Assembly (NCBI RefSeq): GCF_002310375.3
Contig: NZ_CP023315.3
Location: forward strand, 2,604,001 to 2,668,000
DNA length: 64,000 nt
Reading direction: 5' to 3'
Source of the DNA: Caulobacter vibrioides
Lineage (GTDB): Bacteria > Pseudomonadota > Alphaproteobacteria > Caulobacterales > Caulobacteraceae
Shown here: positions 13,036 through 17,571 of the stretch, piece after piece
Layout of the letters: every line of letters begins with the position of its first letter
How positions within the stretch are numbered: the first letter of the stretch is position 1
Program-made: the position numbers and the translations under genes
Notes under the pieces: model-generated
The model's database searches: none
The model's input: the letters and a program-made list of their open reading frames with translations, nothing else
What the model was told of the DNA's origin: nothing

Positions 13036-13542
13036 CTATCGCTCGACCACCTTGCGCTGCATGGGCGCCAGCTTGGCCAGCAGCTTGTTCTGCATCGCGA
13101 AGGGCACGCCTTCCTTGTCCATCGCCCACTGCAGGTTCTCGACCAGGGCGTTGAAGTCCTTATTGGTGACGCCCATGTCCTTGTGAACAGCCGCCATGTC
13201 ACGGCCGGTATAGGTGCAGCCGCCGCCCAGCACGTAGCAGAACTGCTCGGTCAGGGTCCGCTTCAGGCGCGGTACGTCGGTGGTGGCGAAGATCTCCTTG
13301 ATCCTCGGGTCGGCGATGCTGCGGTCCACGAGGTCGGCGGCGATCCGCGCCAAGCCTTCCTTGCCGTTGAAGGCCTGGAAGGTCGCCGGATCAGACAGGG
13401 GCGCAGCGCCGGCGTTGGCGGGCGACTGCGTGTAGGGATCAACTGGCTTTTCACCGGGCGGCGTCGCGTCCTGGGCGAAGGCGCCCCCCGCGAGCAACAT
13501 GGTGGCGGCGCCGGCCAGGACGAAGGCTTTGACGGTCTTCAT
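13036..13542 (-). CDS. Secreted group 1 truncated hemoglobin
   Basis: 168 residues: signal peptide (1-23, ending GGAFA), a Pro-rich linker to about 52, then a trHbN-like globin. FNGKEGLARIAADLVDRSIADPRI matches helix B/C of the family, CTYTGRDMAAVHKDMGV carries the likely proximal heme ligand His120, and LVENLQWAMDKEGV is helix H. Truncated globins bind O2 or NO. Export is unusual because most bacterial globins are cytosolic. It follows the DUF3034 gene by 12 bases on the same strand, so the two form an operon divergent from the cupredoxin and GGDEF-EAL genes. Confidence 0.87.
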   Translation of the reverse strand: MKTVKAFVLAGAATMLLAGGAFAQDATPPGEKPVDPYTQSPANAGAAPLSDPATFQAFNGKEGLARIAADLVDRSIADPRIKEIFATTDVPRLKRTLTEQFCYVLGGGCTYTGRDMAAVHKDMGVTNKDFNALVENLQWAMDKEGVPFAMQNKLLAKLAPMQRKVVER

Positions 13543-13554
13543 GGTCGTTTCCCC

Positions 13555-14421
13555 TTAGAAGCCGGCCTGCAGCGACAGATACACGCCACGCTGGTTCTTG
13601 AAGGTGGCGATGTCGCCGAGGTCCACATAGGCGGCGGTCACCGACAGGTTCTTACTGATGGCGTAGGCGGCGAACAGGTCCATCCAGTCATCCTCCTTGG
13701 CGAACGCCAGGTTGCTGGGCTTGGTCCGATACTCGGCGCCGACCAAAAGCCGTTTACTCAGCAAGTAGCCCGCCGAGCCTTCGAACTGAGGCTTGTAGCC
13801 ATCGGTCCCGCCAAACCCGAGCAGCCCGGTCTGATTGGCCTTGGTCAGCCGCACCGCGCCGCTCAGCACCAGCGACTTGTCGAGCAGGATCTTGGTGGCG
13901 GCGACATAGTAGTCGACGCCGCTGTCGTTCTTGGCGCCGAGCGCCCGCACAAGGGCGTCCTGATTGTTGTCCTTGTACTGCGCGCCGACCGCGATCTGCG
14001 GCGCCCAGCGGTCCTGGTCATAGACCGCGTCGCCCATCACCCGCACCTTGGCGCCGATCACCGTCTGCTTGAACTTGAAGCCGCGCCCCAGGCCAAGCTT
14101 GGCGCCCGTCGCGCCGGTGTCGAACACCTGCTGGGTCGCTGACAGCTCGACGCGATCGCGATAGCCCACCGCCGCGCCAAACGCGCGGAGCTTGTAGTCG
14201 TCGACGCCGACGTGCGTGTAGTGAACCTCGCCGCCCACCCCGCGATTGGTCGCTCCGCCGGCGATCACCGCCCAGGTCGCCAAGCCGCCGCCCGCGCCGC
14301 CTTCCAGCGCGCTGACGCCGTGGGTCAGCAGAAGCTTGCCGCCGGTCTCGATTTCGCCAGCCACCGCCGCGCCCGCAAGCGCCGTGGCCAAGAGAAACGC
14401 CGCTGCTGAAACTGGCTTCAT
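13555..14421 (-). CDS. DUF3034 family outer-membrane beta-barrel protein
   Basis: 288 residues from the ATG at 14421, which has GGAGGGGG upstream; an in-frame start four codons earlier is less good. A signal peptide ends AGAAVA-GEIETGGKLLLTHGVSALEGGAGGGLATWAVI, the opening I associate with DUF3034. The rest is alternating amphipathic strands with terminal Phe (LSLQAGF), indicating an outer-membrane barrel. Function is not known. It is co-transcribed with the secreted globin and divergent (185-base gap) from the cupredoxin/GGDEF-EAL pair. Confidence 0.8.
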   Translation of the reverse strand: MKPVSAAAFLLATALAGAAVAGEIETGGKLLLTHGVSALEGGAGGGLATWAVIAGGATNRGVGGEVHYTHVGVDDYKLRAFGAAVGYRDRVELSATQQVFDTGATGAKLGLGRGFKFKQTVIGAKVRVMGDAVYDQDRWAPQIAVGAQYKDNNQDALVRALGAKNDSGVDYYVAATKILLDKSLVLSGAVRLTKANQTGLLGFGGTDGYKPQFEGSAGYLLSKRLLVGAEYRTKPSNLAFAKEDDWMDLFAAYAISKNLSVTAAYVDLGDIATFKNQRGVYLSLQAGF

Positions 14422-14606
14422 AGCCCCCTCCAAGAGAGCCGATCGCGAGTCCTACGCCCCGCATCGGACGTTCAGACCTTGTTATCCAAAGTTTTTACGG
14501 AAGGTTTCCGATGAGGGGTTCGGCATGAACTTTCTGGGCGAGACCGCTCCATCGAGAACATGTGCGTTAACGGCGATTTCACACGCCCTTTAGTAGAGAT
14601 ATACAC

Positions 14607-15227
14607 ATGAAACGCTTGGCGACGCTCCTCATCGCTATGTTCCTCGGCGGACACGCCTATGCGGGTGACCTCACGGTCTCCGTGCGCGGCGCTGATGGAA
14701 AACCCGTCCCGGACGCCGTCGTCATGGTCTATCCGAACGGCCAGCCCACCAAGGGGCCGATCAAGTTCCCGTGGGCCTATCGGGTCGCGCAGCAGAATAT
14801 CCAGTTCAGCCCGTTCATGCTGGTGGTTCCCGTCGGCGCGGACGTGCAGTTCCCGAACCTCGACAAGGTCAGGCACCACGTCTATTCGTTCTCGCCGGGC
14901 AACAAGTTCGAGATCAAGCTCTACGGCCAAGAAGAGAACCGGACGGCGAAGATGAGCGCGCCCGGCGTCGTGGCGATCGGCTGCAACATCCACGACAAGA
15001 TGGTCAGCTTCATCCGGGTGGTCGACACCGCCTATGCCGGGAAGACCGACGCGAACGGCGTGGTCACGGTCCGCGACGTTCCGGTCGGCGCCGTCACGGC
15101 CAAGGTCTGGCACCCCTATCTGCGCGGGATGAAGAACGAAAAGACCTTGGCGATCACCAGCGTCGGCGCGGGCGCCGCGCGCGAAGCGGTGACGGTCGAG
15201 CTGCGCCAGCCGTCGGGCCACCACTAG
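14607..15227 (+). CDS. Periplasmic cupredoxin-like protein ('methylamine utilization' annotated family)
   Basis: 206 residues. Signal peptide 1-19 (LIAMFLGGHAYA), an Ig/carboxypeptidase-regulatory-like strand set (20-60), then a plastocyanin-like fold with a plausible type 1 copper site: His90/His91 in KVRHHVYSF, Cys126, His129 and Met132 in GCNIHDKM. The spacing C-x2-H-x2-M fits a blue copper protein. Homologs are often labelled methylamine utilization proteins, but no mau genes are present here. It is 7 bases upstream of the GGDEF-EAL gene, so it may pass a redox signal to that sensor; this is inference. The ribosome site (AGAGAT) is weak. Confidence 0.8.
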   Translation: MKRLATLLIAMFLGGHAYAGDLTVSVRGADGKPVPDAVVMVYPNGQPTKGPIKFPWAYRVAQQNIQFSPFMLVVPVGADVQFPNLDKVRHHVYSFSPGNKFEIKLYGQEENRTAKMSAPGVVAIGCNIHDKMVSFIRVVDTAYAGKTDANGVVTVRDVPVGAVTAKVWHPYLRGMKNEKTLAITSVGAGAAREAVTVELRQPSGHH

Positions 15228-15234
15228 GTCGCCG

Positions 15235-17571
15235 ATGTTCAAGCGCCTCCAGACCAAGCTGACCGTCCTCTACGCCGGGCTTTTCGCCCTGGCGTTGAGC
15301 GTCGTGGCGGTGACGGTCTATGTGGCGATCGCCAGCAACGCCCAACGCGCCGTTCGCCAGGAGCTCGCCGCCACCGGAACGGTCTTCGACCGCATCTGGG
15401 CGCTCCGCACACAGCGCCTGCAGGACGGGGCCGAACTGCTTTCCCGGGACTTTGGCTTCCGCGCCGCGGTGGCCACCCATGACCGGGCGACCGTGGAGTC
15501 GGCCGTCACCAACCTGCGCCAGCGGCTCGGCCTGGACCTTGCGTTCACCGTCGGTGTGGATGGCGAGGTGGTCGGCCTCGACCCAAGCCGCCTGGATCTC
15601 GAAACCCTGTGGACCGCGCTGGACGCCGAGGACGGCGCGCAGGGCGTCTTCTCCATCGACGGCCAGCCCCACCAACTGATCTCCGCCCCCATCCTATCGC
15701 CCACCCTGACGGGTTGGGTGGTCTTCGCCGCCAAGCTCGACGAGCGCGAGATGCAGGCGCTGGAAAAGCTCTCGGCGATCGGTCTGGACGCGCAGGTGTT
15801 CACGCAACGCGGCGAAGCCTGGGTTTCCGCCGACCGCGCGCCCGCCGGCGGCGAATTGGCGGCGTTCGTGGCCAAGGCGATGCAGGAAAAGTCCCGCGCG
15901 CCGGCGATGCTCCGCGACGGCGGGGACAGCCTCGTGCTGGTGCAGCCGATCCGGGCGCTCGATCAGACGCGTGGCGCCGCGCTGGTGCTGCGCCATCCCA
16001 TGGCCTTGGCCATGGCCCCCTATCGCCCCCTGATGGCGGCCGTGATCATCGCTGGCCTCATTGGCGCAGCCCTGGTCGCCGCCGCCAGCTGGGCCCTGTC
16101 TCGCGGGCTCGCCAAACCGATCACCGCCCTGGACGAGGCCGCCCGCCGCCTGCAGCGCGGCGAGGACGTCTCGGTCGCGGTGACCACCGATGACGAGATC
16201 GGCCGGCTCGCCGAGAGCTTCAACCTGATGGCTGAAGAGATCCGCGAGCGGGAAGCGGATATGGTCCATCAGGCCCTGCACGACGCCGAGACCGGCCTGC
16301 CGAACCGGCGTGCGCTGGAACGCGCCATCCAGGATCGTCTCACCGGCCTCGCGGTCGGCGAGCAAGTCGTCATCGGAACGATCGGCCTTGATCGCTTCCC
16401 TCAGGTCCGGGCGGCGATCGGCTACGAGCTGGCGACCCAGCTGGTGGCTAAGCTGGGCCAGCGCATCGTGGACACCGTTCCGGGTCTGATCGTCGGACGC
16501 CTGACTACCTCGATCCTCTGCGTCGTCTCGACAACCACCGACATCGAGGATGTGCTTGCGCGCGCAGAGGCCTTGCTCCCCAGCCTCGAAGCGCCGCTGC
16601 AGATCGGCGGCGAACCGGTCGACGTGCACATCACCTTCGGCCTGGCCTCGGCCACGAACGCCGACATCGACGCATCGCGCTTGATCGAGCACGCCCTGAT
16701 CGGCTTGGACCAGGCGCGCGCGACCCACGGCAAGCTGATGGTCTTCGATCCCGTCGCCTATGGTGATCCGGCGTCGAACCTCTCGCTGATGAGCGAGATG
16801 CTGGAAGCGGTTCGGAACGGTGACCTCTTCCTCAACCACCAACCCAAGCTCGACCTCCGCTCTGGCCAGATCACCGGCGTCGAAGCGCTGGTGCGGTGGA
16901 ACCATCCGACACGCGGCTTCCTGCGCCCCGACCTCTTCGTCGGCATGGCCGAGGAGACCGGCCATATCCGCGCCCTGACCGACTATGTTCTGACCCAAGC
17001 CATCGAGGACCAGGCGCGTCTGCGCGCGGCCGGCCACGAGGTGCTGATGTCGGTGAACGTGTCGGGACGCCTCATCGATGACCAGGCCTTCGCCGAGCAC
17101 GCCATCGCACAGGTCGCAGCCGCCGGGGCGAACCTCTGCTTTGAGATCACCGAGACCGCCGTCATCGGCAATCCCGACATCGCTCTGGCGGTCCTGGCGC
17201 GTCTGGCCGAAGCCAATATCCGCGTCTCGATCGACGACTATGGCTCGGGGCTCTCGTCCCTGGCCTATCTCAAGCAGATCCGCGCCGACGAGCTGAAGAT
17301 CGACAAGATGTTCGTGACGGCGCTGGAGTCTGGCGGCACCGACGCGCTGCTGGTGAAGTCGACGGTCGACCTGGCCCACAGCCTGGGCATGAAGGTCACG
17401 GCCGAAGGCGTCGAGACCCGCGAAGTCATCGCCGCGCTACAGCTGATGGGCTGCGACCTCGCCCAAGGCTATCACGTCGCCAAGCCGCTGGCCGTCGACA
17501 AGCTGATCGAATTCCTCGACGCGTGGGCGATCGACCTGCCGGTCAAGACCGAGAGCCGCCTTAGCGCCTGA
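15235..17571 (+). CDS. Membrane GGDEF-EAL protein with HAMP, likely c-di-GMP phosphodiesterase
   Basis: 778 residues: helix 1 (about 10-32), a periplasmic sensor domain (about 33-262), helix 2 (about 263-287), HAMP (about 288-340), a GGDEF domain opening at HDAETGLPNRRALE, and a C-terminal EAL domain. The GGDEF active-site loop is GRLTTSILC near 420, so cyclase activity should be lost. The EAL domain keeps VEALVRWNHP near 547, FEITETAVIGN, DDYGSG near 667, the LKIDKMFV lysine and EGVET, so it should degrade c-di-GMP. It is coupled to the cupredoxin gene 7 bases upstream and converges on the HAD gene. Confidence 0.92.
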   Translation: MFKRLQTKLTVLYAGLFALALSVVAVTVYVAIASNAQRAVRQELAATGTVFDRIWALRTQRLQDGAELLSRDFGFRAAVATHDRATVESAVTNLRQRLGLDLAFTVGVDGEVVGLDPSRLDLETLWTALDAEDGAQGVFSIDGQPHQLISAPILSPTLTGWVVFAAKLDEREMQALEKLSAIGLDAQVFTQRGEAWVSADRAPAGGELAAFVAKAMQEKSRAPAMLRDGGDSLVLVQPIRALDQTRGAALVLRHPMALAMAPYRPLMAAVIIAGLIGAALVAAASWALSRGLAKPITALDEAARRLQRGEDVSVAVTTDDEIGRLAESFNLMAEEIREREADMVHQALHDAETGLPNRRALERAIQDRLTGLAVGEQVVIGTIGLDRFPQVRAAIGYELATQLVAKLGQRIVDTVPGLIVGRLTTSILCVVSTTTDIEDVLARAEALLPSLEAPLQIGGEPVDVHITFGLASATNADIDASRLIEHALIGLDQARATHGKLMVFDPVAYGDPASNLSLMSEMLEAVRNGDLFLNHQPKLDLRSGQITGVEALVRWNHPTRGFLRPDLFVGMAEETGHIRALTDYVLTQAIEDQARLRAAGHEVLMSVNVSGRLIDDQAFAEHAIAQVAAAGANLCFEITETAVIGNPDIALAVLARLAEANIRVSIDDYGSGLSSLAYLKQIRADELKIDKMFVTALESGGTDALLVKSTVDLAHSLGMKVTAEGVETREVIAALQLMGCDLAQGYHVAKPLAVDKLIEFLDAWAIDLPVKTESRLSA

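Follow-up and report, generated by a model that had tools for sequence, protein, structure and literature searches.

We studied a four-gene cluster of Caulobacter vibrioides contained in a window of 64,000 nucleotides (contig NZ_CP023315.3, positions 2,604,001 to 2,668,000), part of a complete 4.14-Mb genome; at this locus, its nearest relatives with a name belong to the Caulobacterales. The cluster comprises the genes of a truncated globin and a DUF3034 protein and, divergent from them, those of a cupredoxin-like protein and of a membrane receptor with GGDEF and EAL domains, a predicted cyclic diguanylate (c-di-GMP) phosphodiesterase (Table 1). The genes were located where an earlier sequence-only reading of this DNA had placed them, in the orientations it gave, and two of its further claims agreed with our results: the cupredoxin and receptor genes are 7 bases apart (15228-15234), and the globin (Bac_globin match, E 9e-11) begins with a Sec-type signal. 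By sequence, such signals are found at the N-termini of three of the four proteins, i.e., the globin, the DUF3034 protein and the cupredoxin. The DUF3034 gene may alternatively start at a TTG at 14433. Comparison with other genomes suggests that the four genes almost certainly constitute one functional unit (see below).

Table 1 Features of the globin/DUF3034/cupredoxin/receptor cluster (positions in the window; TM, transmembrane segment; aa, amino acids)
Feature	Position	Strand	Length	Evidence
Truncated globin, exported, group-1-like	13036-13542	minus	168 aa	Pfam Bac_globin, HbN alignment, 75 orthologues
DUF3034 protein (PF11231), exported, probable outer-membrane beta-barrel	13555-14421	minus	288 aa	Pfam
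Divergent intergenic region, DUF3034/cupredoxin gene	14422-14606			
Cupredoxin-like protein, exported	14607-15227	plus	206 aa	Ligands, profile match
Membrane receptor, TM-dCache_3/CHASE4-TM-HAMP-GGDEF-EAL	15235-17571	plus	778 aa	Pfam, TM segments

We surveyed how these genes associate in 397 genomes drawn from the whole phylum; the Fisher p values given here and below take no account of shared ancestry. DUF3034 was found in 46 genomes belonging to 15 families and a strong cupredoxin-family match in 64. Both were present together in 45 genomes, where about 7 would be expected (Fisher p 7e-43), and this overlap extended to 14 of the 15 families. The two genes lay no more than 3 kb apart in 40 of the 46 DUF3034 genomes. 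A globin profile built from the cluster loci matched strongly, at 124 bits or above, in 48 genomes, among them all 46 with DUF3034; below these came one second copy at 103 bits and then globins at 91 bits or less, a gap that sets these globins apart as a lineage of their own, associated with DUF3034. Two orphan members of this lineage, carrying lipoprotein-type signals, were found without DUF3034 and with no cupredoxin or receptor nearby (L233:5558-6154 and L234:5749-6195, where L numbers designate loci).

The set stays together although the order of its genes differs between lineages. Most alphaproteobacterial loci have the arrangement globin<, DUF3034<, cupredoxin>, receptor>; six genomes, including those of L086 and L110, have cupredoxin>, receptor>, DUF3034>, globin>, an order also present in two more genomes with an extra receptor upstream; and Methylovorus has DUF3034<, globin>, cupredoxin>, receptor>. 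On a Caballeronia grimmiae replicon DUF3034>, globin>, cupredoxin> and EAL> form a single overlapping operon. The sequence-only reading had proposed that the four families would co-occur beyond close relatives, and they do, through several gene orders and 14 families. The cluster is thus far more than a chance adjacency.

The cupredoxin carries the His-Cys-His-Met ligand set of type-1 copper, which aligned with the ligands of solved cupredoxins, and is on this ground a predicted type-1 copper protein. His90, Cys126, His129 and Met132 were invariant in 119/119 orthologues; His91, which had been listed with them in the sequence-only reading, was conserved in 95/119 only and does not belong to the invariant set. 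When compared with solved structures, the family profile hit copper nitrite reductase at its cupredoxin domain (E 3e-6) and gave a weak match to amicyanin. The type-1 pattern is common to all three, and amicyanin has the same C-x2-H-x2-M spacing. Unlike both, the cluster cupredoxin is embedded in a CarboxypepD_reg-like protein and is paired with signalling receptors rather than with a dehydrogenase or reductase. CarboxypepD_reg was recognised in 66/70 members of the family; in the window protein the match covers the segment after the cupredoxin part, and the first ~25 mature residues resemble the start of the same domain. These flanking pieces suggest that the cupredoxin is probably inserted in a CarboxypepD_reg-like domain. 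The automatic name of the protein, "methylamine utilization protein", seems misleading: the local neighbours of the cluster are Mrp/ApbC and HAD hydrolase genes, although no genome-wide search for mau genes was made.

In 104 of the 122 cupredoxin loci compared, a co-directional receptor of the same sensor family adjoins the cupredoxin gene. The window receptor scored above the Pfam cut-offs for dCache_3/CHASE4 (34.8 against 25.7 and 30.4 against 26.2). Conserved Cys or His residues were absent from its periplasmic domain across the orthologues, for which reason this domain probably reads a protein partner rather than a metal or haem. Searched against solved structures, the periplasmic part matched only the HAMP region of NarQ, and weakly. 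The evolutionary distances of the cupredoxin tracked those of the receptor sensor part (r 0.83, partial 0.79) and did not track those of the EAL domain of the same polypeptide (partial r -0.05). Taken together, the sequences make it quite probable that the cupredoxin is the periplasmic partner of the receptor.

The catalytic and metal-binding residues of the EAL domain (E550, N608, E637, D667, D668, K688, E724 and Q744) were present and invariant in 99/99 orthologues, in accordance with the intact EAL proposed earlier, and one further position was kept in 97/99. Phosphodiesterase activity on c-di-GMP is therefore the likely conserved output of these receptors. The GGDEF domain, previously described as degenerate, is so in the window, where TTSIL (424-428) replaces the GG[DE]EF motif of diguanylate cyclases, but degeneracy is not a family trait: of 100 orthologues, 42 had a canonical motif, 11 a near-canonical and 47 a degenerate one. 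Outputs other than EAL also occur. The dCache-HAMP part was found beside a cupredoxin with an adenylate/guanylate cyclase (L037, L206), a histidine kinase or hybrid kinase (L076, L203, L215) or a Ser/Thr kinase (L187, L207), and L205 has a further kinase close to the cupredoxin. The Ser/Thr-kinase receptors (L187:7814-10420, L207:4529-7225), with the kinase at the C-terminus, have an unusual architecture and are adjoined by Porin_5-type barrels. The four genes travel as a unit, as had been proposed, but by sequence the core is the cupredoxin and the dCache-HAMP receptor, not all four.

At the other side of the cluster, the DUF3034 protein (PF11231, 324.4 bits against a cut-off of 25) is a probable outer-membrane beta-barrel. 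It has a C-terminal Phe, as do 90% or more of its 56 orthologues, and a strand-alternation test for a barrel gave a non-decisive z = 1.6; its profile found only weak matches to unrelated proteins among solved structures. Loci without DUF3034 often encode, in most cases immediately after the receptor, an unrelated exported protein of ~410-425 amino acids that has barrel features and is likewise a probable outer-membrane barrel. Individual members of this second type matched BBP2 above the cut-off and Porin_4 below it. One member, L048:10972-12231, belongs to a family of 32 open reading frames, most of them without a good Pfam or NCBIfam model. In the 122 cupredoxin loci, 75 had DUF3034 only, 29 the second barrel only, 2 both (one of which holds two adjoining modules) and 16 neither, which amounts to near mutual exclusion (Fisher p 2e-14). 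Judged by these sequences, DUF3034 with the globin is one front end among two or more alternatives, and the recurring plan appears to combine a cupredoxin and an inner-membrane receptor with a front end that is exported or lies in the outer membrane.

Further versions of the front end were seen. A DUF4394 protein was recognised by Pfam in L119 and L218 and by annotation on a Comamonas plasmid; it is encoded directly upstream of the cupredoxin in L119:7039-7980, L218:5243-6136 and L222:5003-5953, possibly as a third front end. In L203:2721-7329 a cupredoxin, a di-haem CCP_MauG protein (cytochrome c peroxidase/MauG) and a hybrid histidine kinase are encoded in one run, with the CCP_MauG gene between the other two; the pairing of haem and copper therefore recurs, and the haem partner of the cupredoxin may differ from the globin. 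Two Asticcacaulis species (L095:5928-9850 and L118:5880-9796) have a FeoB-like gene, a cupredoxin and a barrel of the second type in a row, with no receptor.

The globin, with a predicted signal cleavage at ..AFA|QD, aligned without gaps to Mycobacterium tuberculosis HbN over 109 residues and kept the proximal His (F8, His120) in 75/75 sequences; the family match and this His place it in group 1 of the truncated globins. It differs from HbN in being exported, in having a pair of Cys residues, and in its distal pocket, where apolar residues replace the Tyr B10 and Gln E11 of the nitric oxide (NO) dioxygenase type. In the window the pocket residues are Val72 (B10), Leu93 (E7) and Leu97 (E11); among the orthologues B10 was Val, Leu, Ile or Met in 73/75 and E11 was Leu, Ile or Phe in 75/75. 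Cys102 and Cys109 were both present in 69 sequences and both absent in 7, the pattern to be expected if they form a disulphide in this exported protein. Apolar distal pockets of haem sensors bind O2 weakly and NO well, and because the pocket is apolar we favour NO over O2 as the possible signal. We are not aware that any role has been established for truncated globins of this exported type.

Elsewhere in the same genome there are 11 EAL matches in all and one further truncated globin, which lacks an evident export signal, is nearest to group-2 globins and retains an FYD motif at the B10 position. In the divergent intergenic region, the block TTTAC-N-GA-N-GGTTTCC was conserved in the three closest relatives only, and a search of 59 divergent promoter regions found no FNR/DNR-type or EcfG-type sites beyond the control.

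The cluster was compared with described systems that share parts of it. Globin-coupled sensors of the DosC/DgcO and HemAT type have a cytoplasmic globin domain fused to an enzyme; the cluster likewise connects a haem globin with c-di-GMP turnover, but this globin is separate, exported and truncated. LapD-type inside-out receptors have the order TM-periplasmic-TM-HAMP-GGDEF-EAL, a degenerate GGDEF and a catalytically dead EAL. The window receptor resembles LapD in its domain layout and its GGDEF, and departs from it in the EAL site, whose conservation in all orthologues argues that the protein is an enzyme and does not serve as a receptor that binds c-di-GMP. The closest parallel in kind, that of a periplasmic partner plus a membrane signalling receptor, is NspS-MbaA of Vibrio cholerae and Sinorhizobium meliloti, a polyamine receptor in which an exported periplasmic protein is reported to act with a membrane c-di-GMP modulator (PMC8967002, PMC9993111). 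As in that description, an exported protein accompanies a membrane c-di-GMP enzyme, and here the partner gene likewise adjoins the receptor gene. The cluster stands outside that system: its partner is a cupredoxin with no Pfam match to spermidine-binding proteins, a globin and a probable outer-membrane barrel are added, and the receptor family swaps outputs. The earlier statement that no system of this composition was known to be described held in the open-access full-text literature, where searches combining cupredoxin or methylamine utilization protein with EAL or diguanylate, and truncated haemoglobin with c-di-GMP or EAL, returned no paper on the cluster, and where DUF3034 is named in unrelated papers only.

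The gene association, the copper and haem ligands, the EAL site, the export signals and the interchangeable outputs and front ends can be read from the sequences themselves. On this basis we propose that the products of the four genes make up a signalling unit spanning the envelope. In it, the exported cupredoxin would be a dedicated periplasmic partner that docks on the dCache domain of the receptor, and the redox or metallation state of its copper would determine how active the EAL phosphodiesterase in the cytoplasm is. The front end would consist of the exported globin and the DUF3034 protein of the outer membrane; there a haem event with NO, or another redox change, would pass to the cupredoxin; the latter would relay it to the receptor and alter c-di-GMP breakdown. 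We infer three of these elements, namely the cupredoxin-receptor contact, the exchange between globin and cupredoxin and the role of the barrel. For a unit whose cupredoxin-gated receptor answers a redox or gas signal we estimate a probability of roughly 0.45. That a redox or NO signal enters through the globin can be put forward only tentatively, the nature of the signal being the least certain part.

Several observations weigh against this proposal. One genome (G306) has DUF3034 and the globin with no cupredoxin, in five loci the DUF3034-globin pair is distant from any cupredoxin (L193, L197, L199, L200, L217), and five cupredoxins have no adjacent receptor (L184, L191, L192, L196, L202). 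Similar evolutionary rates can inflate the distance correlation between cupredoxin and sensor part, which was counted as supportive only; moreover, sensor-part distances also track those of DUF3034 and the globin. The preference for NO is drawn from three pocket positions only.

Other explanations account for parts of the same evidence. The cupredoxin could be the partner of the receptor and yet report, through its loaded or empty state, the availability of copper (or silver); a separate co-regulated function, such as envelope NO or haem handling, would then fall to the globin and DUF3034. The invariant copper ligands would suit this, as would the many cupredoxin-receptor pairs without a globin, including the 29 loci with the second barrel. 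However, every DUF3034 genome has this globin and 45 of the 46 the cupredoxin, no copper efflux or homeostasis gene is recurrent among the cluster neighbours, and in four loci (L032, L033, L191, L192) DUF3034, the globin and the cupredoxin stand together while an EAL receptor is missing, which links globin and cupredoxin directly; we regard a copper or silver report as possible, though on the unlikely side. Somewhat less likely still is that the receptor monitors the outer membrane, the state of the barrel following some surface event, with the cupredoxin/CarboxypepD_reg-like part being mainly a mechanical link in which copper is only stabilising. Most versions do have a barrel-type protein, two unrelated ones being nearly exclusive of each other (75 and 29 loci, against 2 with both), and Porin_5 proteins lie beside the Ser/Thr-kinase versions. 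Yet four metal ligands without exception in 119 sequences exceed the need of a scaffold, the DUF3034 version is always accompanied by an exported haem protein, and 16/122 loci have no evident barrel.

Cupredoxins commonly give electrons to haem enzymes, and the cupredoxin of L203 adjoins a CCP_MauG protein, so the cluster might be read as a redox or NO detoxification unit of a globin and its copper electron donor, with the EAL gene a passenger in the operon. This is improbable in view of the frequent cupredoxin-receptor pairs that have no globin, the receptors with swapped output that remain beside the cupredoxin, and a globin without the Tyr B10 and Gln E11 found in HbN and known in NO dioxygenase globins. 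That the genes are neighbours by chance or inheritance, with no functional link, is barely credible: close relatives do have flanking genes in common, but the association survives reshuffled gene orders, the spread over 14 families and the overlapping operon of Caballeronia, which refute it. A broader form of the trans-envelope proposal is a widespread, hitherto undescribed redox class in which an outer-membrane protein and an exported haem protein change the type-1 copper ligand of output-swapping receptors, the apolar-pocket globin of this version reporting NO and altering c-di-GMP breakdown; stated with all these particulars, it is speculative and rather doubtful.

The near-absolute gene association ties DUF3034, a family with no assigned function, and an exported globin to a copper protein and a c-di-GMP phosphodiesterase, so that the four become testable jointly. 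Confirmation of the copper and haem steps would justify treating the system as a separate class. Blue copper proteins would then be signalling ligands and not only electron carriers, and the family would provide a modular route by which redox information from the outer membrane or the periplasm reaches several signalling outputs. The unit points to an undescribed, envelope-spanning redox or gas sensor that may control bacterial lifestyle.

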